Source: Gilvimarinus sp. DA14 (GTDB lineage: Bacteria; Pseudomonadota; Gammaproteobacteria; Pseudomonadales; Cellvibrionaceae). Taken from it: 64,000 nt of DNA. The DNA lies in assembly GCF_024204685.1 (NCBI RefSeq), contig NZ_CP100350.1:3064501-3128500 (forward strand), read 5' to 3'. Below are positions 9,400 through 33,320 of this stretch, in pieces. The position numbers were made by a program, and so were the translations under genes. Positions within the stretch are counted from its first letter, which is position 1, and each line of letters begins with the position of its first letter. Below the pieces are notes generated by a model, which worked only from the letters and a program-made list of their open reading frames with translations, did not search any database and was not told the origin of the DNA.

Positions 9400-9400
9400 T

Positions 9401-12729: not shown

Positions 12730-15486
12730 ATGTTTACTCGCAGAAAACTAACCAACCCGTTGCTCACCAGCTCATCCGTACTTGCCATGACTCTGGCGCT
12801 TTCTGGTCAGACATTCGCCCAAGAAGGTGACGCCGAAGAGTTTGCTTTAGAAGAAGTTGTGGTGACTGGCTTTCGCCAAAGTTTGGAGCGGGCGCTGGAT
12901 GTTAAGCGCGATGCCGTCGGCTCGGTAGATGCCATTATGGCCGAAGACATTGCCGACTTTCCGGATCAAAACCTCGCAGAGTCGTTGCAGCGTATTCCCG
13001 GTGTAACCATCACTCGCGACTCCGGTGAAGGCCGTGAGATTTCGGTGCGCGGTTTATCCGGTGAATTTACCCGCGTACGTATTAACGGCTTAGAAGCCAT
13101 TGCCGCTACTGGCGGTGAGGGTGGCCCCAACCGCGGTCGTAGTTTTGACTTTAATGTGTTTGCCTCTGAGCTTTTCAACTCCATTGAGGTACGAAAAACC
13201 GCACAGGCGAATATCGATGAGGGCTCGTTGGGCGCTGTAGTGGATTTGAACACTGGCCGTCCATTTAATTACGAAGAGGGTGCTACTTTTGCGGCCAATG
13301 TTGAAGGTCAGTACAACGATTTGACCGAAGATGTTGGTCCGCGCGTGTCGGGCTTGTTTGCGTACCACGACCCTGAAGGCGTGTGGGGTGCATCTTTCTC
13401 GGCTGCCTACTCGGATACCACTACCAAAGAAATGGGTCAGAATACCGTTCGCTGGCAGCGAGCTGGTTTCGCTTCAGTTATGGGGGTGGACTGCTCTGCG
13501 AACCCGGGTGACGCAGGTTGTGCTGAAGTGGCTGGAGCTTTCCATCCGCGTATTCCTCGCTACGGTCAAATTGAAGTTAAGCGCGAGCGCTTGGGTTTAA
13601 CCGGTAGCTTACAGTTCCGCCCTACGGATGCCACCAAGGTAAGCATTGATGCACTTTATTCCGAGCTTGATGCGTCGCGCGGCGAAAAGTGGGGCGAAGT
13701 ATTGTTTCGGGGTAATGAAGGTGGCATGGATGTTGTGGATTACAGCTATGATCCAAGCACCAACAACCTGAACATGATGGAGGTCAACAACGCCTGGGTT
13801 CGCAATGAAAATTTTGAAAAAGCCTGGACCACCAAGTTTAATCAAATTGGTGTTGATATAGAGCACGACTTTACCGATAACTTTAGTGGCCATTTGCTTT
13901 TAGGTACATCCGAATCCAAGCTGAACTTCCCTTACGAAATTACCTTTATGTACGATGACCGTGATTACAACGGTTATATGTACGATTACACCAACGATAA
14001 AGATCCCGTGCTGGCCTTTAACGGCCCGGATGTGACCGATGCTACTAACTTCCAGATGTCGGAGTTTCGTGATCGGCCTACGGATACCACGCATGGTTTT
14101 GACAATGTCAGTGTCGACTTTGATTGGCGCTTGAACGATGTGTTCAGTCTGGAGTTTGGTGCCAGCTATAAGAAATTTACCTTTGATACTGATGGTTATC
14201 GCCGCGACTCAACCGTTTGCGGTAACGAATCTATCGACTTCAATTGTGACACCGACGGTGACGGCACGGCTGATTTGTACGGTATTCCTGGCACTGCTGA
14301 GCTGTCAGAGGTTTACACCTTTGACGACGATGTGGGCGCTGGTAGCACGACTTCGTGGGTGATTCCGAGCCTGGACGGTTGGATAAACGAAATTGATTTG
14401 TTTAATCAGCCCGCCAGTCAAGATCAGGGTAGTGTCAACTCGGTTGAAGAGGAAGATCTTGCCGCCTTTGTACAATTGAACGGTACCACTGAAATCGCCG
14501 GCATGGGCTTCAACTTTAACGTTGGTGTTCGTTACGCCGAAACCGACCAAACGTCTTCCGGTTATAACTCCGGTTCTTGGGTAACTGTCGATCGCGATCC
14601 GTACGACGATATTCTGCCTTCTTTGAATACCGCACTTTGGGTGACGGACGATCTAGTGTGGCGTTTTGCTGCGGCGCAGGTAATGACTCGTCCGGGCCTG
14701 GGTAATTTGTCACCCGGTGGTAGCGTAGATACCTTTAACTACAAGGTGTCTTACAAAAACCCCTACCTGGATCCAACCCGTGCCGATTCATTCGATACCT
14801 CGTTAGAGTGGTATTTTGCGGACGAAGCTGTGGTGTCTTTGGCGCTGTTCTATAAAGACATCGAGTCGCGTCCCATCGGTTCTGAAAGCGAAGGCACCTA
14901 CGCCTCTACTGGTTTGCCATTGTCTCTGCTGAACCCAACCTCGCCAGCAGGCCAGAACCCAGAAGGGCAGCCTTGGACCATTTCATCTATCGATAATGGC
15001 CCTGGCGGTGAAGTAGAAGGTTTCGAAGTGGCTTATCAATCGCCGCTGTCGGTATTTGGTGGCGAAGATACTCTTTTGGACAACTTCGGTGTTATTGCCA
15101 ACTACACCTACGTAACCTCTGATGTGGATTACACCTTTGGTGATGAGATTATTACCGAGCGCTTGTTTGGGCTATCAGAAAACTCTTACAACGCTACGCT
15201 CTACTACGAAGATGATAAGTTCAACGCTCGTATCTCGGCGGCCTATCGCGATGATTACCTGACCAGCACCAGTGGTAATGGTAACCAGTTCGAAGGTTAC
15301 GAGGGCACCATGAACGTAGACTTCTCAGCCGGGTATGCCCTGACCGAAAATCTGGACTTGAAACTTGAAGGTCTGAATTTGACCGACAATTATCAAGACC
15401 GCTTTACCGACCTTGAGAACAAGCGTCGTTATGAGTGGGACCACACCGGTCGCGTATTCACCTTCGGTGTTAAATACACCATGTAA
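12730..15486 (+). CDS. TonB-dependent receptor, large carbohydrate-type (TIGR01782-like)
   Basis: 918 residues from the ATG at 12730, which has a strong aaggag site; a longer frame from 12649 lacks support. A Sec signal peptide (about residues 1-29, 'TFAQ/EG') is followed by a TonB box 'EEVVVTGFR', a plug domain ('DIADFPDQNLAESLQRIPGV', 'ISVRGL') and a C-terminal barrel ending in 'FTFGVKYTM' with a final aromatic-type strand. This subfamily imports oligosaccharides across the outer membrane in Caulobacter, Xanthomonas and related degraders. It is flanked by two GH43 lipoproteins, so arabino- or xylo-oligosaccharides are plausible ligands. A clear terminator follows. Confidence 0.94.
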   Translation: MFTRRKLTNPLLTSSSVLAMTLALSGQTFAQEGDAEEFALEEVVVTGFRQSLERALDVKRDAVGSVDAIMAEDIADFPDQNLAESLQRIPGVTITRDSGEGREISVRGLSGEFTRVRINGLEAIAATGGEGGPNRGRSFDFNVFASELFNSIEVRKTAQANIDEGSLGAVVDLNTGRPFNYEEGATFAANVEGQYNDLTEDVGPRVSGLFAYHDPEGVWGASFSAAYSDTTTKEMGQNTVRWQRAGFASVMGVDCSANPGDAGCAEVAGAFHPRIPRYGQIEVKRERLGLTGSLQFRPTDATKVSIDALYSELDASRGEKWGEVLFRGNEGGMDVVDYSYDPSTNNLNMMEVNNAWVRNENFEKAWTTKFNQIGVDIEHDFTDNFSGHLLLGTSESKLNFPYEITFMYDDRDYNGYMYDYTNDKDPVLAFNGPDVTDATNFQMSEFRDRPTDTTHGFDNVSVDFDWRLNDVFSLEFGASYKKFTFDTDGYRRDSTVCGNESIDFNCDTDGDGTADLYGIPGTAELSEVYTFDDDVGAGSTTSWVIPSLDGWINEIDLFNQPASQDQGSVNSVEEEDLAAFVQLNGTTEIAGMGFNFNVGVRYAETDQTSSGYNSGSWVTVDRDPYDDILPSLNTALWVTDDLVWRFAAAQVMTRPGLGNLSPGGSVDTFNYKVSYKNPYLDPTRADSFDTSLEWYFADEAVVSLALFYKDIESRPIGSESEGTYASTGLPLSLLNPTSPAGQNPEGQPWTISSIDNGPGGEVEGFEVAYQSPLSVFGGEDTLLDNFGVIANYTYVTSDVDYTFGDEIITERLFGLSENSYNATLYYEDDKFNARISAAYRDDYLTSTSGNGNQFEGYEGTMNVDFSAGYALTENLDLKLEGLNLTDNYQDRFTDLENKRRYEWDHTGRVFTFGVKYTM

Positions 15487-15547
15487 AACCCATCCCCAGG
15501 ACGATGGTTGGTTGTGAGCACTTCTTGTCATCCGTCCTGAACTCTTC

Positions 15548-15582
15548 AGCCGAACCAGCTTGCTGTGTTCGGCTGCTTTTTT
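15548..15582 (+). terminator. Rho-independent terminator after TonB receptor 1
   Basis: AGCCGAAC pairs with GTTCGGCT, with an inner CAGC/GCTG extension, followed by GC and six T. It lies 62 nt after the receptor stop and 29 nt before the next gene, which may therefore depend on read-through or its own promoter. Confidence 0.85.
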
Positions 15583-15610
15583 ATTGACAGACCACAAGCC
15601 TGAGGTGGAT

Positions 15611-17224
15611 ATGAGAACACTTTGGATGCTGGCGCTTATCGGTATGGCCGGCTGTCAAACCTCTCCCGAATCTGCGCAACCTAGCAAATCGGTTGCGGAT
15701 AAAACCTATCAAAACCCTATTATTCACGCCGATTACTCCGACCCGGATGTGGTGGCTGTAAACGGCAATTTTTATATGACGGCGTCCAGTTTTAACGCGT
15801 CGCCCGGTCTGCCCGTTTTGCACTCTAAAGATCTGGTGCACTGGAAGTTGATTAATCACGCTCTGCCTACCCAAGTGCCGGCCGATGTATTCGCTACGCC
15901 TCAACATGGCAATGGCGTTTGGGCGCCCAATATTCGCTACCACAATAATGAGTATTGGATTTTCTACCCCGACCCCGATTATGGTATTTACGTGACTCGC
16001 ACCAGTGAGCCGGCCGGCCAGTGGAGCGAGCCCGAATTAATTCTTGCAGGCGAGGGCCTGATTGATCCCACACCCGTGTGGGACGATGACGGCAAAGCCT
16101 ATTTGATTCACGCCTGGGCAAAAAGCCGCGCAGGAATTAACAACATACTTACCTTGCGCGAGATGGCGCCCGATACCAGCTGGGTTTCGCCAGAGCACAC
16201 CACCATTGTGGATGCCAATAAGCTTGAGCGTTTTCGCACGCTCGAAGGCCCCAAGTTTTATAAGCGCAATGGCTACTACTATATTTTTGCCCCCGCCGGA
16301 GGCGTGGACATGGGGTGGCAAACCGTTTTTCGCGCACGCGATATCGCCGGCCCCTACGAGCACCGCATCGTCATGGAGCAGGGCAATACGCTTGTCAATG
16401 GTCCCCACCAGGGCAGCTTGATTACCGCCCCCGACGGTCGCGATTGGTTTATCCATTTTCAGTCCAAAAAAGCCTATGGCCGTATACCGCATTTACAACC
16501 TGTTGCCTGGAAAGACGGTTGGCCCATCATCGGTGAAGACCCGGACGGCGACGGTGTGGGACAGCCGGTTACCGGTGGCCCCATGCCTCTGCCCGCTGTG
16601 GCGGAGGGCTTTAGCATTGATCCCGGCGATGAGTTTACCGAGCAATCGTTAAACTTGGTGTGGCACTTTAACGCCAATAAACAACAGCGCTTTTACTCGC
16701 TGAGGGAGAAGCCGGGCTTTCTGCGGTTGTTCGCCCAGCCGGCTCGCAAGGGAGATAACCTGTGGATGGAGCCGGCGCTTCTGATGCAAAAACTTCCCGC
16801 CGAAATCTTTGAGGCGCGCGGCAAAATTACCCTGTCGGAGAATGCTCGGGACGCAGGCTTGCTGCTATTCGGCGAAGACTACGCTTGGGTAGGCTTGCGC
16901 CGGGATGATCAAGGCCAGGTGCGCGTGGCTTATGTGCAGTGTATGGATGCGCGCAAAGGTTGTGAGGAAGATGAGACTGAATCCTTTAAGGTTAATTCCG
17001 ATACCCTCGAGCTGCGGGTGATTGTGCAGCCGGGGGCGACCGCAGTATTCAGCTTTCGCGATGACCTCACCGGCCGCTTCCGCTCTATTGGGGAACACTT
17101 TCAGGCGAAGAAAGGACGCTGGGTCGGCGCTAAGATCGGCTTTTTTAGCCGTGCTAACGATGCACAGGCTTACGCGGATATCGACTATTTTCGTCTGAAT
17201 AAAGTGGGTGGTCTGGGGGAATAA
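15611..17224 (+). CDS. Lipoprotein glycoside hydrolase family 43 with C-terminal beta-sandwich
   Basis: 537 residues from the ATG at 15611 (gaggtg site); the longer frame from 15560 would run through the terminator. Short lipoprotein signal ending 'MAGC' (Cys15). The propeller domain (about residues 33-325) carries base Asp44 in 'DYSDPDV', the second Asp in 'LIDPTPVW' and acid Glu in 'TLEGPKFYKR'. The C-terminal part (about 340-537) resembles the beta-sandwich found in xylosidase/arabinofuranosidase GH43 proteins. The exact linkage is not predictable from the sequence alone. It is followed 2 nt later by a carboxylesterase gene, a tight pair suggesting joint action on acylated side chains. Confidence 0.88.
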   Translation: MRTLWMLALIGMAGCQTSPESAQPSKSVADKTYQNPIIHADYSDPDVVAVNGNFYMTASSFNASPGLPVLHSKDLVHWKLINHALPTQVPADVFATPQHGNGVWAPNIRYHNNEYWIFYPDPDYGIYVTRTSEPAGQWSEPELILAGEGLIDPTPVWDDDGKAYLIHAWAKSRAGINNILTLREMAPDTSWVSPEHTTIVDANKLERFRTLEGPKFYKRNGYYYIFAPAGGVDMGWQTVFRARDIAGPYEHRIVMEQGNTLVNGPHQGSLITAPDGRDWFIHFQSKKAYGRIPHLQPVAWKDGWPIIGEDPDGDGVGQPVTGGPMPLPAVAEGFSIDPGDEFTEQSLNLVWHFNANKQQRFYSLREKPGFLRLFAQPARKGDNLWMEPALLMQKLPAEIFEARGKITLSENARDAGLLLFGEDYAWVGLRRDDQGQVRVAYVQCMDARKGCEEDETESFKVNSDTLELRVIVQPGATAVFSFRDDLTGRFRSIGEHFQAKKGRWVGAKIGFFSRANDAQAYADIDYFRLNKVGGLGE

Positions 17225-17226
17225 AA

Positions 17227-18822
17227 ATGAGCGAATTGATTAATAATACACGCCGTCAATTTTTAAAAACGGGCGCTTTGGTGGCCGCCTCAGCGCCTTT
17301 GGCTGCAAGTGCCTTTGCCACGGCGGGCGCAGAATTACAAACTCGCAGCGGCCGGGTAAGGGGGGAAAAGCACAACGGCTTACATATTTTTAAGGGTATT
17401 CCCTATGGCGGCGACACCGCCCAGCGTCGCTTTCAGCCACCGGTAAAAGAGGCGTCGTGGCAAGGCGTGCGCGATGCCACAAGCTATGGTGCCTCCGCCC
17501 CCCAGGGGCGAGATGACAGCAGTAGTGAAGACTGTCTGTTTTTAAACTGCTGGACGCCAGGTTTAAACGATGGTGGCAAACGTCCGGTCTTGTTTTATAT
17601 TCACGGCGGCGGCTATGCCAATGGCTCGGGCAGTGATCCCTTATATGACGGCTCTAGCCTCTGTCATCAAGGCGATGTGGTGGTCATTACCGTCAATCAC
17701 CGTTTAAACGCGTTTGGCTATTTGTACCTGGCTAATCTGGCTGGGCCTGCGTATGCGCACTCGGGCAATGTGGGGCAGCTGGATTTAATCGCCGCATTGC
17801 AGTGGGTACAAGAGCACGCCGAGGCGCTGGGCGGCGACCCCAACAACGTCACCGTGTTCGGCCAATCCGGAGGCGGCGCCAAAATTGCCACCATGATGGC
17901 CATGCCTGCCGCGCAAGGCTTATTTCACCGCGCCTGGACTATGAGCGGACAGCAAGTCACTGCCGCCGGCCCGCGCGCCGCGACTCAGCGCGCCCAACGC
18001 TTTTTAGATACCCTAAAGCCCGGCGCCAGTCGTAAAACGCAACTCAGTGCCTTGCTTAAAGCGCCCATAGATGAAGTGCTGGAAGCAACCAAGGCCAAGG
18101 ACTTTTCGCGCATTGAGGACAAGTCATTGCATTTTTGTCCGGTTATGGACTCCGGTGTGTTACCGCGTCATCCCTTTTGGCCCGATGCACCCGCGCAGTC
18201 GGCGGCCATTCCCATGGTGATTGGCAACACTCGCGATGAAACCCGCGCGTTTCTCGCCAAGGATGAAAACTTTAATCTTAAGTGGGAAGACTTGCCGGAT
18301 AAAATCCGTCGCCAGCAATATGTAGATATCGAACCGCGCGCAGTGATTGATTTCTACCGTCAGCAATACCCTAATTACACACCCACTCAGGTTTTCTTTG
18401 CTGCCACCACGGCCGGACGGTCCTGGCGCGGTGCGGTCGAAGAACTAGAAGCCCGCGCCGCCCAGGGTAACAACACCTGGGCCTATCAACTGGACTGGGG
18501 CTCGCCATTAGACGGCGGTAAATACGGCGCCTTTCATACCCTGGATATTCCTCTGGTGTTTAACAATATTCATCAGCCGGGGTCGCGCACCGGCGACAGC
18601 GAAAGCGCGCAGAAAATGGCGCGCACCATGAGCGACGCGCTGCTAGCCTTTGCCAAAACCGGCAGCCCCAATGGCGAAGGTGAGCCAGAGTGGAAACCCT
18701 ATGGCCTGGATAAGCGCCAAACCATGGTTTTCGATGTGCCGTCACACCTGGAGAATGATCCGCGCGGCGCAGAGCGAGCCTTTTATGCGCAGGTGCCGTT
18801 TATGCAGCGGGGAACGTTTTAA
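17227..18822 (+). CDS. Type B carboxylesterase with Tat-type signal
   Basis: 531 residues of the alpha/beta-hydrolase type B family. The N terminus has 'NTRRQFLKTGAL', a twin-arginine signal followed by a hydrophobic stretch to 'ASAFA' (about residue 31). Triad: Ser214 in 'FGQSGGG', Glu338 in 'TRDETRAF' and His437 in 'GAFHTLDIP'; 'EDCLFLNCW' (101-109) and the oxyanion 'HGGGY' (126-130) are also present. It starts 2 nt after the GH43 stop. Hydrolysis of acetyl, feruloyl or similar esters on hemicellulose or pectin fits the neighbourhood, but substrates in this family cannot be read from sequence. Confidence 0.9.
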   Translation: MSELINNTRRQFLKTGALVAASAPLAASAFATAGAELQTRSGRVRGEKHNGLHIFKGIPYGGDTAQRRFQPPVKEASWQGVRDATSYGASAPQGRDDSSSEDCLFLNCWTPGLNDGGKRPVLFYIHGGGYANGSGSDPLYDGSSLCHQGDVVVITVNHRLNAFGYLYLANLAGPAYAHSGNVGQLDLIAALQWVQEHAEALGGDPNNVTVFGQSGGGAKIATMMAMPAAQGLFHRAWTMSGQQVTAAGPRAATQRAQRFLDTLKPGASRKTQLSALLKAPIDEVLEATKAKDFSRIEDKSLHFCPVMDSGVLPRHPFWPDAPAQSAAIPMVIGNTRDETRAFLAKDENFNLKWEDLPDKIRRQQYVDIEPRAVIDFYRQQYPNYTPTQVFFAATTAGRSWRGAVEELEARAAQGNNTWAYQLDWGSPLDGGKYGAFHTLDIPLVFNNIHQPGSRTGDSESAQKMARTMSDALLAFAKTGSPNGEGEPEWKPYGLDKRQTMVFDVPSHLENDPRGAERAFYAQVPFMQRGTF

Positions 18823-22394: not shown

Positions 22395-22419
22395 GCCGGT
22401 GCTGTGCGCCGGCTTTTTT
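22395..22419 (+). terminator. Rho-independent terminator after the TonB gene
   Basis: GCCGG/CCGGC stem with a short loop followed by six T, 35 nt after the stop codon. Confidence 0.8.
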
Positions 22420-22632: not shown

Positions 22633-25600
22633 ATGGACTCTCAAACATTTCTGTTTTCACGTTGTCGTGCAATTGGCCTTGGCGCCATGCTCGGCACCTC
22701 AATGCTTTGGGGCAGTAGTGCTGCCTACGCACAGTCGGCGCCGGATGAGGCGGACTTCCAGCGCGAAGTTGTGGCCGAAGGGCTGGATTTGCCAATGGAG
22801 TTTGAAATATCGGCCGACGGGCGCGTATTTATTGCCAGTAAGTGCGGTGGTGTGTACGCCTGGAATTTAGATTCGGGCAGCCCAGCGCAAACCTCTACCG
22901 TGCCTAATGTGCGTTGCGTGTTTGAAGATGGCTTGTTGAGTGTGGCGCTCGACCCCAACTTTACCCAGAACAGTTATATCTACTTTCAATACACGGCGCC
23001 CGGCAGCATTACTCGCGTGTCGCGGTTTACGGTGAATGCGGATAACAGCCTGGATGTCGGCTCTGAGTCGGTACTCTTGGAGTGGATAACGGGCGATGAG
23101 GCCCATGGCCACATGGGCGGTTCACTGCAATTTGATACCCAGGGCAACTTGCTGATTACCACCGGTGATAACAAAGCGGCGGGCGGTTACTTTCAGCCTT
23201 CGGCTCAGGGAACCTCGGGCAACACCAATGATATGCGCGGCAAGATTTTGCGCATTACGCCCACCGCAGATGGCGGTTACACCATTCCGCCCGGTAATTT
23301 ATTTGCAGGCGACGCGCTGCGCCGCCCAGAAATTTACGGCATGGGGTTTCGCAATCCCTTCCGCTTAAGTGTTGACCCGGCGACCAACTGCTCTTATGTC
23401 GGCGATATTGGCCCAGACGCTTCCACCGACAGTGCTGAAGGCCCAGGCGGGTTGGATGAGATCAACGAAATCTGCAGCGCTGGCAACTACGGCTGGCCTT
23501 ATATCATTGGCTACAACCAGCCGTACGCCGGGTTTGACCCCAACAACATTGTCAACAACGCTTCTGATAATACTGGCGCAACGAACCTGCCCAATTCGGT
23601 GGGTGCCTTATGGACGGTGCGCCACCAGGCCACCATGGCAGGGCCGGTATACCGGCTGAATGAGGGTATTGATAACCCCTTTAAATTACCGGCTTACTAC
23701 AATGGCAAACTGATCTTTTGGGATTTTAACAGCAGTCGTTTTAGCACTATCGATTTGAGCTCTCCGGCATCGCCGCCGGTGGCTGAACCCTTTCCCATTA
23801 ATACCCAGGGCTTTCAAGGCGCCATTGACGCTGAGTTGGATCCGCGCACCCATCAACTGTATGTGTTGCAGTGGGGCTCTGGCTGTTGTGACAAAGAACC
23901 CTACGGTGGCGGTGCCCTGTATCGGTTTGATTATGTCGGCAACCGTGACTCGGGCACCAATGTGGCGCTGGGTGGTGTTGCCAGTGCCAGCAGTGAGGTG
24001 GCAGGTAATCTTGCCGCTTATGCCATTGACGGTGACCCAAGCACACGCTGGGAAAGTGACGCATCCGACCCACAGAGCCTGACGGTTGAATTGGCCGAGG
24101 CTGTGACCATAGGTTCCATTTCTATTGTTTGGGAGGGGGCCTACAGCTCGCGTTACGTGATTGAAGGGTCGAACGACGGTCAAAGCTGGACCCCTCTGGC
24201 GGAAGAACTTGCGGGCTCTGGTGGCACGCGCTTGCATATTATTGATTCCAGCGAGGCCTATCGCTATGTACGCTTAACGGGAACAGAGCGGGGCACCGGC
24301 TACGGCCATTCGATTTTTGAATTTGAAGTTTACGCTGGCGAAGTTGAAGAGCCACCCGAAGAGCTGACCGAGCACGCCTACCTGAACATGCCGCGCACGC
24401 TCGATGCGAATTTTACCGATGTGCCTTTGCTGTTGTCTCAAACTGGCGCCTTTGCCGATACCGCAAATCTGGTGCCCAGTGCACATTTAATTCCCTTTGA
24501 GCCCAACACAAAGCTGTGGTCGGACCGAGCGCTAAAAACCCGCTGGTTATCCTTGCCCGCCGAGCGCCAAGTGGAGTGGCACCAGAGCGACGATTGGGGT
24601 TACCCCCAGGGTACCGTGGCAGTAAAACATTTTGAGTTGCCCTTGGTGGGTGACGGCGCCGGGCTGACCAAGCGCCTGGAAACGCGTTTGATTGTGATGC
24701 AGGCCAATGGCCGGGTTTACGGTGTTACTTATAAATGGCGTGATGATAACAGCGATGCCGAGTTGCTGACCACCAGTGTGCTGGAAGACATTGTGGTCAC
24801 CCGAGACGATGGCAGCAGCTGGACGCAAACCTGGGCTTACCCTAGCCCGACGGAGTGTATTGACTGCCATAATCCAGACTCGGCACAAATACTCGGCTTG
24901 TCCACCCGCCAGTTAAATGGTGAGTTCAGTTACCCCGATGGCAGCCGTGAGAACCAGCTGGTGCACTGGAACAATCTGGGTTTGTTTAGTCCCGGGTTTG
25001 ATAACGCAAGTGTAGGCAGCTTTGACAAAATGGTGGCCATTACCGATACCAGTGCCAGTTTGGAGCAGCGGGTTAAATCTTATTTAGACACCAACTGCGC
25101 ACACTGCCACGGCACGGGTAATGGTGGTTCGCAATGGGACGCGCGCTATAACACCCCGTTGGCGCAAATGCGTGTGGTGGGTGAAGCCACCACCGGTATC
25201 CGTAACTACCTGAATTATTACGGAATCGACAACGCCGAGGTGGTAACACCGGGGGCGCCACATCAATCCATTTTGTACATTCGCGATCAAAGCGAAAACC
25301 CTGACGACCGCATGCCGCCCATTGGCCGCGCCTTAGAACACCCGGAATATATCGCGGTGTTGGAGCAGTGGATTGACAGCCTGGATGGCACAACACCGCC
25401 GCCAACTACCGGGTTAATCAGCGGTAATGCCAGTGCCACGGCAACCTCTGTCGAGGCGGAATACGCCGCTGATTACGCCACCGACGGTGACCCGACCACC
25501 CGCTGGGCCAGCGAATTTGCCGATCCGCAATCGCTTACCGTGGATTTACAGCAGGTATACCGCATCGACCGCATTGTTCTTAACTGGGAGGCGGCCTACG

Positions 25601-28572
25601 GCAGTGCGTATGTTATTGAAGGTTCGCTGGACGGCCAGAACTGGGAGCCGGTGTACAGCCAGGAAGCCGGTGTGGGCGGCGAGGAAACCCTGGAAAACCT
25701 TTCTGGTAACTATCGCTACCTGCGCCTTACCGGCACGCAGCGCGGCACTGAATGGGGCTACTCGTTGTGGGAGTTTGAAGTGTACGGCGGCGAGCCGGTA
25801 ACGGCGGCTGAGCCCGAGCTGGTCTCGCAAAATAAGGCGGTTACCGTGTCCAGCACCGAAGCGGACTACGCCGGCGCATTAGTGGTAGACGGGGACGCAA
25901 CCACCCGCTGGAGCAGTGAATTTGCCGATCCGCAGTGGGTGCAGATCGACCTTGGCGAGCTGTATGCGCTGGATAGAATTGAGCTGAGCTGGGAGGCCGC
26001 ACACGCCAGTGCTTACATCATAGAGGGCTCTACCGATGGCAGCGCCTGGTCTGAGTTGGTGAGTGTTGGCAACGCCGCCGGTGGCGACGTTGTACACGAT
26101 GGCTTATCTGGCAGCTTCCGCTATGTGCGCCTGACAGGCACGGAGCGGGCCACCGAATGGGGCTACTCGCTGTTTGAAATGGCGGTATGGGGTGTTGCGG
26201 GCAGTGGCGATCCCGGCGATAACCCGGGCACACCGAGTCTTAGTGTGAATGCTCCGGTGAGCGGGCAAAGCTATCTGGAGGGCGAAGCGGTCATCGTTTC
26301 GGCCAGTGCCTCCGCCAGCCAGTGGTTTGCCGATGGCAATGGTCTGTTGGTGAGCGTCGACGGCGCGGTGGCCGAGTTCAGTGCCGCTAGCACGGTTAAC
26401 CTGGGAGCCTTGGCCGCGGGAGCGCATACAATCGTTGTGCAGCTTGCGGACTCTGAGGCCCAAGCTGTGGGCAACAGCGTGAGCCTTAATGTGGTTGTGA
26501 ACGAGCGCAACACTAACCCGGCGGAATTACTGTCGCTGAACAAAAGTGCTTCCAGCTCGGAAGTGGAGGGCGACTTTGTTGCCGCCAATGCAGTGGATGA
26601 CGACTTGGGCACACGCTGGAGCAGTGCCCACGATGATGCAAACCACTACCTGCAAATTGACTTAGGGGCGAGCTACCCGCTTGGCCGGGTCGAGCTGGAG
26701 TGGGAGGCGGCCTATGCCACCGGTTATCGCATTGAAGTGTCGGGCGATGCGGCCAGCTGGAGCGAAGTGTTCAGCACTAGCAATGGTGATGGCGGCCTGG
26801 ACACGGTTGATGTGTCGGCCAGTGGGCGTTACGTGCGCCTTACCGGCACCAGTCGGGCCACGGCTTATGGGTATTCGCTGTGGGAAATGCGCGTGTACAG
26901 CCAGGGCGATGTCGCACCAACGGCGCAGCTGGATGTGCTATCCCCCCTCGCTGGGCAAACCTTTGCTGCAGGCGAGGCGGTCACGGCCGAGGTCAGTGTC
27001 AGCGACAGTGACTGGTTTACGGACGGCGGTAGTTATCGCTACACCTTGGATGCTAACGCCGCCGTTACACGCAATGACGATGCGCCTTTTTCTCTCGGCG
27101 TTTTAAATGCGGGCGGCCATACGTTTGATGTGACCTTAGTCAGTGCAACGGGCAGCGATGTCGGCGCCGCTGAAAGTGTCACCTTTTATGTGGCGGGCGG
27201 CGAAACGCCTACCACTCCCAGCCCGGCACAATTGTCGCCCATTCAGGCCACAGCCTCTTCAGAAGTGGGTGGCAATCTTGCCAGTTACACCATTGATAGT
27301 ATTTACAATTCACGCTGGGAAAGTGAAATCGCCGATCCGCAATTTTTAACCTTGGATATGGGGCAAAGCGTTTACCTGACCCGGGTGCGCCTGGATTGGG
27401 AGGCCGCCTACGCCCGTGTCTACCGTTTAGAAGTGTCCGCCGATGGTAATGAATGGACCAGCATTTACGAAAACACCAACAGCGATGGCGGAGTTGATGA
27501 TATCGCCTTGAATGGTGAGCAGGGTCGCTACTTGCGGGTGTATGGGACGGAGCGTGCCACAGGCTACGGCTACTCGCTGTTTGAGGTTGAGGTATTTGGC
27601 TTGCCGGCCGATCCCTCACTGGCAATGATTGATGTGCTGAGCCCTGCCAATGGCGCCAGTGTGGCCGAAACCGATGCCGTCACCCTGTCGGTCAATATCA
27701 GTGACAGCAGCTGGCTTGTCAATGGCGGTGCCTACCGTTATCAGCTTAACGACCAGGCGCCAGTTACGGTGAATCAGTTGGCCGATATTAATCTCGGCAC
27801 TTTACCCACCGGGCGTCACACCCTGGCCGTTACCTTAGTCGATAGCACCGGCGCGGCGGTCAGTGTGCCCCGCAGCCACAGCTTTACGGTTAATTGCGGT
27901 GCCGATTGCCCCAATGTGTTGGTGTTCTCGAAAACCTCTGGTTTCCGCCACGGGTCTATCCCCGCGGGTATCGCTATGGTGGAAGCGATTGCCGACGATT
28001 ACGGCTATGGTTTTACCGCCAGTGAAGATGCCGCCGTGTTTACCGACGCGGGTCTCGCCCAGTACGACACCATAGTGTTTATGAACACCACCGGGGATAT
28101 CTTTACCGACAGTCAAAAGGCGGCGTTTAGAAGCTATATCGAAAACGGCGGCGGCTATGTCGGCTCTCACTCGGCCGCAGACACCGAACACGGTTGGGAC
28201 TGGTACACCGATGTGCTGCTCGCCGGTGCCGAGTTTATTCATCACGGTGATGGCATTCCCATGGCCCGGGTGGAAATCGAGCAGCAAAGCGATCCGTTGG
28301 TGAGCCATATAGGCAGTGACTGGAACCTGGCTGACGAATGGTATTTCTGGGAGTCCAGCCCACGAGGTGTGGGAAATGTGCAGGTGCTGGGTAATCTGGA
28401 TCGCAGCAGCTACACCTCGAACTACCCAGTGGATGATCATCCTGTCATCTTTAAAAATACCGTGGGCAGCGGCCGTGTGTTTTACACCGCGATTGGCCAC
28501 GTTGATGCCAACTTTTCAGATCCGAATATGATCGAAATGATGCGTAAAGCGATCGAGTGGACTTCTCAGTAG
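22633..28572 (+). CDS. Secreted PQQ-type sugar dehydrogenase-diheme cytochrome-CBM32-ThuA fusion protein
   Basis: 1979 residues. Order: Sec signal peptide (1-34, 'AYA/QS'); glucose/sorbosone-dehydrogenase-like propeller (about 40-440, 'GHMGGSLQFDTQGNLLITTGD', 'GMGFRNPFRLSVD'); F5/8 type C (CBM32) module 1 (444-571); cytochrome-like region with two CxxCH haem sites at Cys742-His746 ('CIDCH') and Cys822-His826 ('CAHCH') and a candidate axial Met894; CBM32 modules 2 (930-1054) and 3 (1063-1191); Ig-like domain (1203-1295); CBM32 4 (1296-1426); Ig-like (1428-1527); CBM32 5 (1530-1656); Ig-like (1660-1759); ThuA-like domain (1760-1979, 'FRHGSIPAGIAMVE', 'GHVDANF'). Likely an extracellular glycan-bound sugar oxidase passing electrons to its own haems. 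Substrate unknown. Ribosome binding site cggag. It is monocistronic, with a terminator after. Confidence 0.9.
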   Translation: MDSQTFLFSRCRAIGLGAMLGTSMLWGSSAAYAQSAPDEADFQREVVAEGLDLPMEFEISADGRVFIASKCGGVYAWNLDSGSPAQTSTVPNVRCVFEDGLLSVALDPNFTQNSYIYFQYTAPGSITRVSRFTVNADNSLDVGSESVLLEWITGDEAHGHMGGSLQFDTQGNLLITTGDNKAAGGYFQPSAQGTSGNTNDMRGKILRITPTADGGYTIPPGNLFAGDALRRPEIYGMGFRNPFRLSVDPATNCSYVGDIGPDASTDSAEGPGGLDEINEICSAGNYGWPYIIGYNQPYAGFDPNNIVNNASDNTGATNLPNSVGALWTVRHQATMAGPVYRLNEGIDNPFKLPAYYNGKLIFWDFNSSRFSTIDLSSPASPPVAEPFPINTQGFQGAIDAELDPRTHQLYVLQWGSGCCDKEPYGGGALYRFDYVGNRDSGTNVALGGVASASSEVAGNLAAYAIDGDPSTRWESDASDPQSLTVELAEAVTIGSISIVWEGAYSSRYVIEGSNDGQSWTPLAEELAGSGGTRLHIIDSSEAYRYVRLTGTERGTGYGHSIFEFEVYAGEVEEPPEELTEHAYLNMPRTLDANFTDVPLLLSQTGAFADTANLVPSAHLIPFEPNTKLWSDRALKTRWLSLPAERQVEWHQSDDWGYPQGTVAVKHFELPLVGDGAGLTKRLETRLIVMQANGRVYGVTYKWRDDNSDAELLTTSVLEDIVVTRDDGSSWTQTWAYPSPTECIDCHNPDSAQILGLSTRQLNGEFSYPDGSRENQLVHWNNLGLFSPGFDNASVGSFDKMVAITDTSASLEQRVKSYLDTNCAHCHGTGNGGSQWDARYNTPLAQMRVVGEATTGIRNYLNYYGIDNAEVVTPGAPHQSILYIRDQSENPDDRMPPIGRALEHPEYIAVLEQWIDSLDGTTPPPTTGLISGNASATATSVEAEYAADYATDGDPTTRWASEFADPQSLTVDLQQVYRIDRIVLNWEAAYGSAYVIEGSLDGQNWEPVYSQEAGVGGEETLENLSGNYRYLRLTGTQRGTEWGYSLWEFEVYGGEPVTAAEPELVSQNKAVTVSSTEADYAGALVVDGDATTRWSSEFADPQWVQIDLGELYALDRIELSWEAAHASAYIIEGSTDGSAWSELVSVGNAAGGDVVHDGLSGSFRYVRLTGTERATEWGYSLFEMAVWGVAGSGDPGDNPGTPSLSVNAPVSGQSYLEGEAVIVSASASASQWFADGNGLLVSVDGAVAEFSAASTVNLGALAAGAHTIVVQLADSEAQAVGNSVSLNVVVNERNTNPAELLSLNKSASSSEVEGDFVAANAVDDDLGTRWSSAHDDANHYLQIDLGASYPLGRVELEWEAAYATGYRIEVSGDAASWSEVFSTSNGDGGLDTVDVSASGRYVRLTGTSRATAYGYSLWEMRVYSQGDVAPTAQLDVLSPLAGQTFAAGEAVTAEVSVSDSDWFTDGGSYRYTLDANAAVTRNDDAPFSLGVLNAGGHTFDVTLVSATGSDVGAAESVTFYVAGGETPTTPSPAQLSPIQATASSEVGGNLASYTIDSIYNSRWESEIADPQFLTLDMGQSVYLTRVRLDWEAAYARVYRLEVSADGNEWTSIYENTNSDGGVDDIALNGEQGRYLRVYGTERATGYGYSLFEVEVFGLPADPSLAMIDVLSPANGASVAETDAVTLSVNISDSSWLVNGGAYRYQLNDQAPVTVNQLADINLGTLPTGRHTLAVTLVDSTGAAVSVPRSHSFTVNCGADCPNVLVFSKTSGFRHGSIPAGIAMVEAIADDYGYGFTASEDAAVFTDAGLAQYDTIVFMNTTGDIFTDSQKAAFRSYIENGGGYVGSHSAADTEHGWDWYTDVLLAGAEFIHHGDGIPMARVEIEQQSDPLVSHIGSDWNLADEWYFWESSPRGVGNVQVLGNLDRSSYTSNYPVDDHPVIFKNTVGSGRVFYTAIGHVDANFSDPNMIEMMRKAIEWTSQ

Positions 28573-28584: not shown

Positions 28585-28615
28585 GCCCCCGGTAGCTATT
28601 ACCGGGGGCTTTTTT
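28585..28615 (+). terminator. Rho-independent terminator after the giant fusion gene
   Basis: A 10-bp perfect stem GCCCCCGGTA/TACCGGGGGC with a 5-nt loop and a T run, 13 nt after the stop. Confidence 0.92.
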
Positions 28616-28900: not shown

Positions 28901-29416
28901 ATGCACTACATACGCAGTATGGAGAAAGTGTACTTTAAAGCGCTGGGGTTAATTACCCGTACCGTTGGCAAGGTAGTACCGCCGGACGATGTAGAAGATA
29001 TTGTGCAGGAAACCTACGTAAAAGTCTGCCAGTTGCGCCCGCAGCAGAGCATTCGCAACCCTCAGGCGTTTGTGGTGAAAATGGCGCGCAATCTGGCGCT
29101 GGATCACATCAAACGCGCTGAGTACCGCCTGGCCTCGAGTATGAACGGCTGTGCGGTGGAGGTTGAAGCGCAATTGACCAGCAGCGAAGACCCGACCTTA
29201 GAAACTCTGGTGAGCGATGAGGCCTTTGGTATTTTTTGCGAAGCGGTACGGCAGTTGCCGCCACAGGCGCGACGCGCTTTTGTGTTAAAGAAAGTCTATG
29301 GCTACAGCCAAAAGGAAATAGCCGCGCAGTTAGGGGTCAGTGAAAGCACCGTGGAGAAGCATATCGCCAGCGGCTTGTATCGCTCGCGCCAATATATCAA
29401 GGAAAGAAACACCTAA
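28901..29416 (+). CDS. ECF RNA polymerase sigma factor, FecI-like
   Basis: 171 residues with sigma region 2 ('PPDDVEDIVQETYVKV' and 'NPQAFVVKMARNLALDHIKR', about residues 27-70) and region 4 ('LPPQARRAFVLKKVYGYSQKEIAAQLGVSESTVEKHI', about 119-155). The family directs transcription of TonB-receptor genes after an outer-membrane signal. fecR follows after 11 nt and the receptor overlaps that, forming a three-gene surface-signalling operon. The ATG at 28901 has an aggtga site; a second Met at residue 7 is possible. The target may be this operon or the carbohydrate genes nearby. Confidence 0.93.
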   Translation: MHYIRSMEKVYFKALGLITRTVGKVVPPDDVEDIVQETYVKVCQLRPQQSIRNPQAFVVKMARNLALDHIKRAEYRLASSMNGCAVEVEAQLTSSEDPTLETLVSDEAFGIFCEAVRQLPPQARRAFVLKKVYGYSQKEIAAQLGVSESTVEKHIASGLYRSRQYIKERNT

Positions 29417-29427
29417 GCGAGGTATCA

Positions 29428-30465
29428 ATGGGCAAGGTTTATCGCCTGCGCCGAAAAGAGGATGTCGACCTGCAGGCTGCTCAATGGGTAGTGGCCATTG
29501 AGCGCACGCTCACCCCGCAGGAAGAGCGTGAGCTGTCCCTCTGGTTAAGCCAAAGCCCCCGCCACCGCAAAGCTTTGGCCGAGGCGGCCGATACCTGGGA
29601 GCAACTGGACAGTCTGGCCCGCTTGGCAGACTTGTTTCCCACCGCAGAATCCATGGCCCCGGATTCGGGCACGCGCTTTAACTGGAGTGTCGCGGCCTCG
29701 GTGGCACTGTTTCTGGTTTTCTCCTTCACCAGCAGTTTGTATTTCTGGCGTGATTGGGTCGCACCGGGTTCGCCAGTGGCACAGTTTACACAGCAATTCA
29801 GCACGGATGTGGGTGAGCAAAAACAGTTTGTGTTGAGCGACGGTAGCGAGCTACTGCTAAACACCGACTCAGAAGTGAGCATCCATTACGACAATAATCA
29901 GCGCAATATTTTTCTGTATCGCGGTGAGTTACACATCACCGTCGCCCACGATAGCAATCGCCCACTCAGGGTGCTTTCCGATAACAATATTCTTGAGGCG
30001 GTGGGTACGGCTTTTGGTGTGCAAAAGCTTGATCAAGGCGCGGTTTCTTTATTGGTGACCGATGGGCGGGTAAAGGCGTCTCGGCGCAATGAAAGCAGTG
30101 AAAACTCTGCGCCTGTGGCTGTGGTGGAATCCATTCAGCGCGGGCAGCGACTGATTCTCGCAGAGAATGAGGCGGCGATTGAAACTTTAACTGATTCAGG
30201 TGTTAATGCTCTGCTCGGCTGGCGCAACGGCCAGCTTATTTTTCGCGGCGAGCGGTTAGAAGCGGCCATTGCACAGGTGAGTCGCTATACCGATATCGAT
30301 ATTGTGATTGCCGATCCAAATCTAAAAGACGTAAAAATAGCCGGCTTATTTCGCGCCGGAGATATCCCCGCCTTACTGCAAAGCCTGCAGGATAATTTCT
30401 CAATTTACAGCGAGACGGTAAACGCTCACACCATCGCTCTGCATTCTGCTGCAACCGCACAATAA
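29428..30465 (+). CDS. FecR-family anti-sigma regulator
   Basis: 345 residues. The N-terminal DUF4880-like cytoplasmic part ('AAQWVVAIERTLTPQEERELSLWLSQSPRHRKAL', about 16-51) binds the sigma factor. One membrane helix follows (about 89-105, 'SVAASVALFLVFSFTSSLYF'), then the periplasmic FecR domain ('DVGEQKQFVLSDGSELLLNTDSEVSI', about 128-153) and a DUF4974/STN-contact tail ('NGQLIFRGERLEAAIAQVSRYTDIDI'). Family role: it holds the ECF factor inactive until the receptor's signalling domain engages it. Stop and next start overlap (TAATG). Confidence 0.94.
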   Translation: MGKVYRLRRKEDVDLQAAQWVVAIERTLTPQEERELSLWLSQSPRHRKALAEAADTWEQLDSLARLADLFPTAESMAPDSGTRFNWSVAASVALFLVFSFTSSLYFWRDWVAPGSPVAQFTQQFSTDVGEQKQFVLSDGSELLLNTDSEVSIHYDNNQRNIFLYRGELHITVAHDSNRPLRVLSDNNILEAVGTAFGVQKLDQGAVSLLVTDGRVKASRRNESSENSAPVAVVESIQRGQRLILAENEAAIETLTDSGVNALLGWRNGQLIFRGERLEAAIAQVSRYTDIDIVIADPNLKDVKIAGLFRAGDIPALLQSLQDNFSIYSETVNAHTIALHSAATAQ

Positions 30466-33320
30466 TGATCCGATTCGTATGGAGGAAAGGCGCTATAACT
30501 TCGTCTTTGAAGGGAGCGATGCGCGGCATCGTTTCGGGAGTAGGGTCGGTATTGTTGGTTTTCTCAATGTCTCAGTGTGCTTGGGGTTTTGATAAAAACA
30601 AACGCATAACCTTTCGTATTCCTATGCAGCAAGCTGACGTGTCATTGACAGCGTTTGCAGAGCAGGCGCAGGTGACTTTAGTGTTTCCGTACGACGCGGT
30701 TAAAAACATAACAACGAACGAGGTTAATGGGCAGTTTACATTCTCCGGGGCGTTGGATGTTTTACTTGGTGGAACCTCTCTTGAATATTCTGTCAGTGAC
30801 GACGGCCAGCTAACAATAATGAAGGATCAAACAGTATTAGAGAGCGATGCTATGAATAAAAAAAATTTATCCTTGGCGGTTGCCGGTGTTATGGGTGGTT
30901 TGCTGGGCGCCCCTGTGGATGCGCAGCAAAATGCTAATGTTTCGGCCAGTGGTCTAGAAGAGATTATGGTCACAGCCCGGCGCAAAGAAGAAAATTTGCA
31001 ACAGGTTCCGGATACGGTTGTCGCGTTTTCCAGTGCGACTATTGAACGTGCCAATATTGAGGCCGCTCGGGATATTACCGTGCGTATTCCCAATGTTGCG
31101 ATTACAGAATCTCTGAGTCCGTCTTCTACCTTTTTAATCGTTCGCGGTGTGTCCTCGGTAAGAAACTCCGAGCCAGCGGTTGCCGTTGTGGTGGACGGTG
31201 TGCAGATTGGAAGCTCTTCGGAGGTTTCGCAGTCGCTGTACGATGTGCAGCAGATTGAACTTCTAAAAGGACCGCAAGGCGCACTGTACGGGCGCAACGC
31301 CCTGGGTGGTGCGCTGATTATCACGTCCAAAAAACCAAGCCAGGACTTTGCCGGAAACTTTACGGTAGGCGGCGGCAGTGGTGATTTGTTTGAGGTTCGT
31401 GGCGCGCTTTCTGGCGCAATCACCGACGATGTGTTGTTTCGTTTTTCGGGCAATCACCGCTCTTTTGGCGGAACAATTGAAAATCAGTATTTAAATCGTG
31501 TTTACGAACGCAATGGCCGCGCGGTTGCGGGCTCTTCTCCCGGCAATAGTTACATGGATTTTGAAGAGAACCGTGATTTTCGTGCTCAGATTATGTGGGA
31601 GCCCAGCGATCAAACACGATTCGACTTGCGGTATTCCCACAGTGGCTTGGAGTCGGGTGCCATGTGGTATAGAAACTTATATCGCCTGGAGACCGATCCG
31701 AATGAAGTTTATGAGTTTCCCATAAACTCTAACGGCAATCCCACCGCCGTTCGCTCCATTGACACACTGACGCTAAAGTTTGAGCACGATTTTGACTTTG
31801 CCACTTTTACCTCCATCACCAACAGTACCGATACCAACGAACGCTACGGTGTGGCGGGTGAAACCCGTGGCCATGATCGTACCGGCAATGTTTTATTCTT
31901 TACTGAGCCGTTTGTCGATGAGTTTATTGCCGGTCTTGATTCTGAGGTAGACCGTGACTTTTTCAGCGCTCAATTGGGAGACTGGGCGGCCGGAAACTTT
32001 GTGGGCTCTGACCAGTACTACGATGTGCAGACCGTTTCGCAAGAGTTTCGCCTAACCGGCTCGGCCGACAAGCTCAGCTATGTGTTGGGAGCTTATGGGT
32101 TATTGACCGATCGGGCCGATACCTTGCGCTCGACCTGGGAAACCCCGAGCGGATCGCCTTTTGATTGTGAACCCGCGTATCCCGGTGGGCCCGCGGTGAC
32201 GGACTTTACCTGTAACGGTTTTATCGATGCAACGCAAAATGAGCAGGACAACCGTGCCTGGGCCGTGTTCTTCAGTACCGACTACGACCTAAGCGACACA
32301 TTAACGCTGACACTGGCGGGCCGCTACGATGAAGACAAACGCGAGGTGACGCGTATTGATGGGCCTACGGTCGACACCGAGGGTATGGGAGTAGGTAACA
32401 AGTGTGACGCCGATACGGACCCCGAGAATTGCGCGCGCGCGGGCTCAACCATTGGTAAAACCTATAGCGCCTTTCAGCCCAAGGTGTCGTTAGCGTATAC
32501 GCCCAATGAGGCGCTTACGTTGTATACCACTGCCGCACGCGGATTTCGCAGCGGCGGTTTTAATGCCTCGGGCGCGCTGCTGGCAGACTCTTACGATCAG
32601 GAAACACTGGACAGCTTTGAGGTAGGTTTTAAAAGCAGTTTATTTGGTAATCTGTTACGGCTCAATGGTGCGGCGTTTTATCAGCGCTACGAAAATGCCC
32701 AGCAGTTTGAGTTTGATGGCAATATTTTTGTACAGAGCCTTTATAACATTCCCGAAAGTGAAATTAACGGCATTGAGTTGAGTATGGATTGGGTGGCCAC
32801 CGATCATCTAATGGTGTCGGCGGGGCTTGGCATTATGGAGTCGGAAATTAAAGAGTTTGATACCGACATTCGCGACCGTATGCGTTCTGAATTGCTGGCG
32901 CGTACGGCGAACACAGTCAAACTGCCCGAGGGGACGGCCGAGGCGTTCGAGCGCAATTTTGAAGGCGAGCACATGCCAAACTTCCCACATCAGTCTGCCA
33001 ATATCGCGTTAAATTATGACCTGCCTGTGGGCGACAGTGACAGTTTTATTGCGCATCTCGATTACAGCTACACTGCTGATCGGTACTGGTGGATTGATAA
33101 CGAGGATGTGCAGGACAACCTCGGCCTGGTGGCGGCGAGTTTGTCTTATGTCTTTAAGGATAATTTAGAACTGGAGCTGTGGTGTAAGAATTGTTTGGAT
33201 GAGGAATATGACTCGGAGTACGCGCCGACCGAAAAAGAATTGTTTGGTGGCGCCGCGAAAGATGTTGCCTATCGCGCGCGGGGAATTACTTATGGCTTAC
33301 AGGCCAAATATAACTTTTGA
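30465..33320 (+). CDS. TonB-dependent transducer/receptor with N-terminal STN domain
   Basis: 951 residues. Signal peptide (1-41), then an STN signalling domain (about 47-118, 'FRIPMQQADVSLTAFAEQAQVTLVFPYDAV'), then an unexpected second signal-peptide-like stretch starting at Met130, a TonB box 'EEIMVTARRKEENLQQVP' (about 165-182), plug ('LLKGPQGALYGRNALGGALIITSKKP', about 266-291) and barrel ending 'GLQAKYNF'. STN domains pass ligand occupancy to FecR. The barrel resembles siderophore-like or generic receptors more than the large carbohydrate type; ligand unknown. Its start overlaps the fecR stop by one base. An internal AGAGAG-7nt-ATG at 30852 could allow an STN-less product. Confidence 0.92.
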   Translation: MIRFVWRKGAITSSLKGAMRGIVSGVGSVLLVFSMSQCAWGFDKNKRITFRIPMQQADVSLTAFAEQAQVTLVFPYDAVKNITTNEVNGQFTFSGALDVLLGGTSLEYSVSDDGQLTIMKDQTVLESDAMNKKNLSLAVAGVMGGLLGAPVDAQQNANVSASGLEEIMVTARRKEENLQQVPDTVVAFSSATIERANIEAARDITVRIPNVAITESLSPSSTFLIVRGVSSVRNSEPAVAVVVDGVQIGSSSEVSQSLYDVQQIELLKGPQGALYGRNALGGALIITSKKPSQDFAGNFTVGGGSGDLFEVRGALSGAITDDVLFRFSGNHRSFGGTIENQYLNRVYERNGRAVAGSSPGNSYMDFEENRDFRAQIMWEPSDQTRFDLRYSHSGLESGAMWYRNLYRLETDPNEVYEFPINSNGNPTAVRSIDTLTLKFEHDFDFATFTSITNSTDTNERYGVAGETRGHDRTGNVLFFTEPFVDEFIAGLDSEVDRDFFSAQLGDWAAGNFVGSDQYYDVQTVSQEFRLTGSADKLSYVLGAYGLLTDRADTLRSTWETPSGSPFDCEPAYPGGPAVTDFTCNGFIDATQNEQDNRAWAVFFSTDYDLSDTLTLTLAGRYDEDKREVTRIDGPTVDTEGMGVGNKCDADTDPENCARAGSTIGKTYSAFQPKVSLAYTPNEALTLYTTAARGFRSGGFNASGALLADSYDQETLDSFEVGFKSSLFGNLLRLNGAAFYQRYENAQQFEFDGNIFVQSLYNIPESEINGIELSMDWVATDHLMVSAGLGIMESEIKEFDTDIRDRMRSELLARTANTVKLPEGTAEAFERNFEGEHMPNFPHQSANIALNYDLPVGDSDSFIAHLDYSYTADRYWWIDNEDVQDNLGLVAASLSYVFKDNLELELWCKNCLDEEYDSEYAPTEKELFGGAAKDVAYRARGITYGLQAKYNF

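Follow-up and report, generated by a model that had tools for sequence, protein, structure and literature searches.

What does a protein do whose single chain unites a sugar dehydrogenase-like propeller, a two-haem cytochrome, an array of glycan-binding modules and a ThuA domain? The question is raised by a gene of Gilvimarinus sp. DA14, found at 22633-28572 (+) of a 64,000-nucleotide stretch of contig NZ_CP100350.1 (positions 3,064,501 to 3,128,500), which is called the window here. The open reading frame (ORF) starts with ATG, encodes 1979 amino acids and is free of internal stops in the window sequence. A domain search of the full protein placed a glucose/sorbosone dehydrogenase (GSDH) propeller, five F5/8 type C (F5/8C) modules and a ThuA domain with Pfam, and a diheme domain of the SO2930 type with NCBIfam. 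A preliminary description of this DNA had read dehydrogenase-like, cytochrome, glycan-module and ThuA parts in one uninterrupted frame, and both this reading and its coordinates and residue numbers proved right; the chain also has a signal-peptide-like start. We propose, with a probability of roughly 0.4, that the product is a secreted or cell-surface redox protein anchored to glycan, in which the propeller would oxidise a sugar, the haems would relay the electrons and ThuA would handle the product.

Judged by its sequences, the chain is a stable protein family. The architecture is found in 14 of 144 Cellvibrionaceae genomes, in 17 genes including that of the window. The domain order GSDH–F5/8C–diheme–F5/8C(n)–ThuA is common to all 17, each of the 16 others having been fetched and checked. 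One F5/8C module always sits between the propeller and the haem domain (17/17 genes), the number of modules differs among the genes, and the orthologue in genome G018 has additional carbohydrate-binding modules (CBMs) at its N-terminus. An assembly join or frame artefact, a worry raised in the preliminary description, is ruled out by the same order in 16 further genes. A wide, motif-based scan of one genome per species (84,980 species), queried with the stretch that runs from propeller to haem, returned relatives from Gilvimarinus agarilyticus, G. algae, G. gilvus, a Cellvibrio metagenome-assembled genome and other Gammaproteobacteria. Of 116 confirmed stretches its counts take in the best 80, and candidates were taken via two propeller motifs, which biases them to ThuA-type propellers.

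Trees were built for the GSDH, ThuA and diheme domains from quick searches, with support from the Shimodaira-Hasegawa-like approximate likelihood ratio test (SH-aLRT) only. The 20 alignment rows of the architecture represent 17 distinct genes; L054, L057 and L061 duplicate L147, L144 and L146 and were left out of the tree building. In each tree the 17 genes group together (SH-aLRT 100 for GSDH, 100 for ThuA and 98 for diheme). They join three genes of the order ThuA-GSDH-x-diheme with support of 93, 97 and 100 in the GSDH, ThuA and diheme trees, respectively, and these three as a group reach an SH-aLRT of only 77 in the ThuA tree. Because all three domain trees tie both orders together, the simplest account would be a single old ThuA-GSDH-diheme fusion that was rearranged, ThuA later moving to the other end. 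The ThuA-first order is probably the older one, since ThuA-GSDH fusions are common. In the diheme tree a long-branch warning sets part of the GSDH-diheme group against the other sequences, which makes the number of diheme acquisitions less certain than the joining of the two orders. GSDH-diheme proteins without ThuA belong to a distant GSDH clade (SH-aLRT 100). ThuA-GSDH fusions that carry a cytochrome are frequent outside this family: among the 59 ThuA-GSDH fusions collected, one CxxCH follows the propeller in 50, and 5 of the other 9 end no more than 9 residues past the propeller. GSDH has been coupled to c-type haem in no fewer than three ways (a diheme domain together with ThuA, a diheme domain on the distant, ThuA-less GSDH clade, and a single CxxCH in ThuA-GSDH fusions), which argues that the propeller donates electrons to haem.

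Structure prediction bears out the dehydrogenase-like fold that had been read from the sequence. Pfam places GSDH at residues 51-300 (134.3 bits, cut-off 25), and AlphaFold 2 (AF2) and Foldseek give a six-bladed GSDH propeller, with a predicted local distance difference test score (pLDDT) of 81-97 in most 10-residue blocks. The best Foldseek matches are the soluble glucose dehydrogenase sGDH (1qbi/1cq1), Asd (3das/2g8s) and HHIP. An alignment of 112 rows, covering ThuA-type, diheme-type and canonical propellers, has the catalytic His and Arg in all 112 and the Asn in all but one, a canonical row with Ser. The window protein has the Gly-Pro calcium loop, as do ThuA-type propellers, with a single exception, at the Pro, among 59 ThuA-GSDH rows. 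In the proposed reaction the propeller would oxidise a sugar or sugar end, with His160 as the base and Arg240-Asn241 at the cofactor. As a separate observation, 18 of 36 GSDH rows have a vicinal Cys-Cys immediately ahead of the catalytic His, and a Cys-Cys at residues 418-419 occurs in 13 of the 36, the window protein included; vicinal disulphides near pyrroloquinoline quinone (PQQ) occur in eight-bladed quinoproteins.

Several points weigh against a sugar-oxidising propeller with attached haems. HHIP, a binding protein whose role we take to be non-redox, has the same fold by Foldseek. The C-terminal Arg-x-Arg of canonical enzymes is replaced by Gly-x-Ile/Asn in the 17-gene family. Its first Arg, which we presume to be R406 in the usual numbering, is Gly in 20/20 rows of the architecture (17 distinct genes), and Arg at the R408 position is found in no row of the 112 but the three canonical ones, which are local sequences, 3/3 with Arg-x-Arg. 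The complete window genome has no PqqC match; the PqqC cut-off is passed by 27 of 145 genomes in the order. Its PqqE matches are all below the cut-off, which no genome passed, controls included, so that this search had no positive control. The neighbouring genes in the 16 fetched loci and the window single out no substrate. A literature search that took in few subscription journals found no paper joining ThuA, sorbosone dehydrogenase and a cytochrome. Finally, a GSDH-like propeller of Teredinibacter is reported to lack PQQ binding and glucose dehydrogenase activity (PMC10916295; this and the other articles are cited from the accessible portions of their text).

Part of this evidence speaks for another explanation, namely that the propeller is a non-redox binding scaffold like HHIP (or a hydrolase or lactonase) and that the haem electrons come from elsewhere, e.g., from a di-haem oxidoreductase (DHOR) partner. 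The place of HHIP among the best fold matches, the lost Arg pair, the want of any PQQ biosynthesis marker over cut-off in the window genome and the published negative for PQQ in Teredinibacter (PMC10916295) all fit it, as does the position of a DHOR gene, which lies directly upstream of the orthologue in two loci (L143 and L145; 26 bases apart in L145) and is separated from it by one short ORF in a third (L149), an arrangement that suggests a two-protein redox operon in some relatives. It has to contend with His and Arg being kept throughout the alignment, and Asn too apart from a single row, and with the repeated fusion of the propeller to cytochromes. We favour an oxidoreductase over a pure scaffold because the conserved His, Arg and Asn would be needless in a scaffold, and consider the scaffold unlikely. 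DHOR as an obligate partner was rejected: relatives are found in 100 of 144 family genomes (E 1e-20), yet a DHOR protein lies within the fetched stretch in only 5 of 16 loci.

The sugar-oxidising propeller, which we prefer, need not be a classical PQQ enzyme. An ordinary canonical PQQ enzyme was rejected as stated, the C-terminal Arg pair being lost. In the wider clade the first Arg is not uniformly lost; 20 of 59 ThuA-GSDH rows retain it, as do 5 of 18 rows of GSDH alone. R408 and K377 have been named for PQQ enzymes (PMC6881789); Lys377 was dropped as a criterion because each of the three local canonical sequences has Leu at the aligned position. Loss of the Arg pair does not rule out PQQ, because AA12 enzymes bind it with residues other than the canonical ones (PMC6881789). 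By analogy, PQQ may be held through other residues, and the cofactor would be bound unlike that of classical enzymes, either as PQQ in an altered site or as another quinone. By gene content, PQQ, if used, must come from outside. Of the PQQ-type dehydrogenase claimed at first, the GSDH propeller with its His and Arg-Asn stands, while the PQQ part is called into question by the Arg pair, the Pqq markers and the Teredinibacter propeller. The label 'PQQ-dependent' is unsafe for the ThuA-linked and diheme-linked GSDH clades, since the second canonical Arg is absent from every such row examined.

The haem domain matches NCBIfam TIGR03806 ('SO2930 family diheme c-type cytochrome') at residues 598-917 over the full profile (2-314 of 314) with 221 bits, short of the curated cut-off of 313.3; 6 of 7 relatives scanned match as well, all six below the cut-off. 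The protein of 1979 amino acids has two CxxCH, against 0.0014 expected from composition. The following counts refer to 29 distinct domains, left from 33 rows after removal of four duplicates. Both CxxCH (at 742 and 822, as first described) and Met894 after the second are invariant (29/29), and Met894 is a candidate ligand of haem 2. For haem 1 there is no invariant Met or His candidate as axial ligand; Met586 is found in 19 domains and His666 in 22, and Lys665 and Tyr700 are invariant. Haem 1 is therefore probably no ordinary Met-ligated wire. In the AF2 model the haem-1 part consists of consecutive strands and then, at the first CxxCH, a short helix, and much of the second half of the domain has pLDDT <50, which made the modelled packing of the propeller against the haems unusable. 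Solved-structure profile searches with the haem domain gave nothing significant (best E 0.0058 and 0.11). We propose that the adjacent two-haem domain would take up electrons from the propeller and release them to an acceptor outside through the haem ligated by Met894. The internal electron path put forward earlier fits the repeated GSDH-cytochrome pairing, but a haem 1 that serves as an ordinary Met-ligated wire is unsupported.

The haem-1 part may be a cytochrome P460-like domain, which is a lead, not a finding. It would make haem 1 a P460/c'-beta-like catalytic or gas-binding haem, by which nitric oxide, hydroxylamine or peroxide could be detoxified or used at the glycan surface with sugar electrons. 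The P460/c'-beta type is marked by a five-stranded sheet, a C-terminal CxxCH and, in P460, a cross-linking Lys. The invariant Lys665 and the missing invariant axial candidate suit this idea. In hhalign the haem-1 part aligned to a ten-protein P460-family profile (10 of 20 fetched loci; the rest were without a fitting frame or were repeats) with a probability of 58.6-61.9% under local and 80.7% under global alignment, Lys665 falling opposite the PxGxxxxK lysine. The comparison profiles gave <1% (F5/8C, GSDH and ThuA) and 16.8% (cytochrome c half). In P460 proteins the cross-linking Lys precedes the distal carboxylate position by 24-26 residues (Table 2 of PMC11928373). L155 has a Glu 24 residues after the PxGxxxxK lysine (counted by hand), and because this fits that spacing we infer that the PxGxxxxK lysine is the cross-link lysine. 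Weak PF16694 matches occur in 9/29 members (best E 0.005), but an unrelated cold-shock profile matches 14/29 (best E 0.002). Cytochrome P460 of N. europaea ranks fifth in Foldseek at an E of 0.2, which is not significant, and no P460 chain appeared in the solved-structure searches. Moreover, 3 of 200 column shuffles that keep CxxCH reach the P460 score, P460 sub-groups alone give 27.7-40.7%, and CxxCH falls opposite CxxCH only once the alignment is loosened. On balance a catalytic or gas-binding haem 1 is distinctly unlikely. Very doubtful, in turn, is a glycan-anchored cellobiose dehydrogenase analogue that would unite a non-classical quinone propeller, a P460-like haem with a possibly cross-linked Lys, an exit cytochrome c haem and a ThuA acting on the product in one secreted chain.

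The five F5/8C modules of the preliminary description were recovered by Pfam as five stretches with 355.8 bits. The solved chains nearest to them are chitosan-binding modules of Paenibacillus glucanase/chitosanase, and chitin, lichenan, cellulose and laminarin were all bound by a related module from a beta-1,3-glucanase (PMC2789033). By analogy, we propose that the modules anchor the protein to polysaccharide. The three Ig-like spacers of that description are weakly supported: two were seen by eye, and the third is a Big_7 match of 22.5 bits (cut-off 24.1), although Big_7 reaches 35 bits, above the cut-off, in an orthologue.

A protein held on polysaccharide could also be a bacterial counterpart of fungal AA8-AA12-CBM1 proteins or cellobiose dehydrogenase and pass sugar electrons via its haems to a lytic polysaccharide monooxygenase (LPMO) on the same polysaccharide. 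The logic is that of CcPDH of Coprinopsis cinerea, where CBM removal impaired the PDH-LPMO system (PMC5960967), and an isolated c-type haem domain of Cellvibrio Cbp2D can start LPMO reduction, if slowly (PMC8981238). The window genome has three AA10 LPMO genes, so electron supply to oxidative polysaccharide enzymes, as first suggested, is possible; it is not obligatory, for G. gilvus (G004) has an orthologue and no AA10 match was found there. The haem domain is of the SO2930 type and not AA8, the modules are F5/8C and not cellulose-type, and the Teredinibacter turnerae (TERTU) proteins are reported to be inconsistent with an LPMO donor role (PMC10916295, PMC12055684). We regard a dedicated LPMO donor as improbable.

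The C-terminal ThuA-like domain is clear: Pfam ThuA (PF06283) matches residues 1761-1977 with 205.1 bits, well past its cut-off of 33.4, and columns of H, E and D are invariant over 29 rows. In the glycan-anchored redox protein, the oxidised sugar product would then be handled by this domain. The context of a lone ThuA gene in the window genome, which adjoins UbiD and Rho, was uninformative as to function.

The protein would act outside the cell. Its signal peptide was read by eye without a predictor, and four orthologues likewise have small-x-Ala signal-peptide ends. CcmE and two GspD secretins are over cut-off in the window genome, so that haem attachment and outer-membrane export would be possible. 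Terminator-like hairpins on both sides suggest that the gene is its own, monocistronic transcript, and an operon with the neighbours is unsupported; the hairpins are consensus matches only, of which the region contains 9 where 7.5 would be expected. Positions of all features are given in Table 1.

Table 1. Features of the Gilvimarinus sp. DA14 gene and its flanks, in window coordinates.
Feature	Position	Strand	Basis
Terminator-like hairpin upstream of gene, downstream of TonB gene	22395..22413	+	
Whole gene, multidomain protein of 1979 aa	22633..28572	+	ORF list; orthologues
Sec-type signal peptide, residues 1-33, ending ...SSAAYA before QS	22633..22731	+	Read by eye
GSDH six-bladed propeller, residues ~40-432	22750..23928	+	Pfam, AF2, Foldseek
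His160, counterpart of sGDH catalytic His144	23110..23112	+	His in 112/112 aligned rows
Arg240-Asn241, counterparts of sGDH Arg228-Asn229	23350..23355	+	Alignment, 112 rows
Gly396-Ala-Ile398, positions of canonical Arg-x-Arg (RIRD motif), lost	23818..23826	+	Alignments
F5/8C (CBM32-like) module 1, residues 441-566, between propeller and haem domain	23953..24330	+	
Haem-1 part of SO2930-type domain, residues ~586-770, beta-rich then CxxCH; possibly P460-like	24388..24942	+	
Lys665, aligned with PxGxxxxK lysine of cytochrome P460 proteins	24625..24627	+	Invariant 29/29
Haem site 1, CIDCH, residues 742-746	24856..24870	+	
Haem site 2, CAHCH, residues 822-826, weakly cytochrome c-like	25096..25110	+	
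Met894, likely axial ligand of haem 2	25312..25314	+	Invariant 29/29
F5/8C module 2, residues 928-1050	25414..25782	+	
F5/8C module 3, residues 1060-1185	25810..26187	+	
Ig-like spacer 1	26200..26508	+	By eye, sequence only
F5/8C module 4, residues 1296-1421; nearest solved chain 4zy9 (chitosan-binding module)	26518..26895	+	
Ig-like spacer 2	26920..27207	+	By eye, sequence only
F5/8C module 5, residues 1533-1654	27229..27594	+	
Ig-like spacer 3, weak, Big_7-like	27610..27888	+	Pfam below cut-off
ThuA domain, residues 1761-1977	27913..28563	+	Pfam; solved relatives 4jqs, 4e5v
Terminator-like hairpin, 11 pairs then six T, begins 13 bases past last base of stop	28585..28609	+	

The neighbours vary across species. 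Near the gene in the window there is a GH43 gene (Pfam) and, by eye, there are pectin/uronate genes and a GH16-like gene. Window positions 1-18822 appear by eye to be a pectin/uronate utilisation region with transporter, pectinesterase-like, UxaC-like and fructuronate reductase-like genes, two GH43-like proteins (one Pfam-confirmed) and a carboxylesterase (Pfam). After the gene, at 28901-33320, come an ECF sigma factor, FecR (Pfam) and, by eye, a TonB-dependent receptor whose start resembles STN. Sigma factor and FecR follow the gene in the four Gilvimarinus loci examined, window included, and a cluster with a TonB-dependent receptor as its scanned member is nearby in 7 of 16 fetched loci. Elsewhere in the window genome, near 2093261, DHOR is fused to CBM35, CBM6 and CBM56 (L152:3259-6978, minus strand). 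Other large GSDH proteins were met in the course of the work. Three of 1992-2255 residues (L047:3111-9605, minus strand; L046:4313-10291; L048:3023-9790) have GSDH, two close CxxCH and two further CxxCH; by Pfam, L046 and L047 contain CBM26, GSDH and PSD3/PSD5/PSD4/PSCyt3/PSD2 domains, and the next gene in L047 encodes a DUF1552 (HXXSHH) protein. Two adjoining Maribacter frames of 2332 and 2788 residues (L064:2531-9526 and 9785-18148) have ThuA-type GSDH, and neither ThuA nor CxxCH was detected in them.

Among relatives by descent, the nearest group in all three trees is formed by the ThuA-GSDH-x-diheme proteins of Gilvimarinus gilvus (L060), NORP12 (L059) and Paraglaciecola algarum (L062), which, unlike the window protein, have ThuA first and no match of the local F5/8C profile. 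ThuA-GSDH-cytochrome c fusions, mostly from Bacteroidota or Rhodothermales records among those fetched, differ in their N-terminal ThuA and single CxxCH, and F5/8C was found neither by Pfam in the three scanned (L042, L045, L050) nor by the local F5/8C profile. One such fusion, of 832 amino acids, is encoded in the window genome; it belongs to the same sub-families as the 1979-residue protein, with 40% identity in GSDH and 42% in ThuA. The window genome also encodes a GSDH-TIGR03806 protein of 764 amino acids without ThuA, which likewise has GSDH and then an SO2930-type diheme domain, but whose kind belongs to the distant GSDH clade and has GQ...EEIN in place of GP...DEIN.

A sugar-oxidising propeller, a cytochrome and a CBM in one chain are already known from fungal AA8-AA12-CBM1 proteins and from Teredinibacter. 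CcPDH likewise has a six-bladed PQQ-type propeller with a cytochrome and a CBM, and it drives LPMO; it differs from the window protein in its b-type AA8 cytochrome, CBM1, proven PQQ and other PQQ ligands and, in the accessible text, lacks ThuA (PMC5960967, PMC6881789). With c-type CxxCH and F5/8C instead of b-type AA8 and CBM1, the window protein falls outside the AA8-AA12-CBM1 class. TERTU_2567 and TERTU_3803 of Teredinibacter turnerae are multimodular proteins that likewise combine CBM, GSDH-like propeller and c-type haem (PMC12055684, PMC10916295), and the CBM-GSDH-cytochrome c proteins of the Teredinibacter secretome have already been likened to CcPDH (PMC12055684). By CBM content alone, L040 (GSDH-TIGR03806-PA14-CBM10-CBM5) resembles TERTU_2567, for which CBM5 and CBM10 are reported. 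Cbp2D of Cellvibrio also pairs CBM with c-type haem domains, here X183/X132 (PMC8981238, PMC12542752), and growth on insoluble cellulose depends on it to an important degree (PMC12542752). Unlike for the window protein, the accessible portions of these sources mention no ThuA and no F5/8C array for the TERTU proteins and Cbp2D. Four points are new, as far as searched: ThuA is joined to the CBM-GSDH-cytochrome class with F5/8C arrays, both domain orders share an origin, ThuA-type and diheme-type propellers alike lack the second Arg, and there is a P460 lead for haem 1. Through the fusion ThuA gains a fixed redox partner. A bacterial equivalent of cellobiose dehydrogenase has been stated to be unidentified (PMC10916295), and the 17-gene family, with conserved catalytic residues and haem sites in one chain, is a testable candidate for it.

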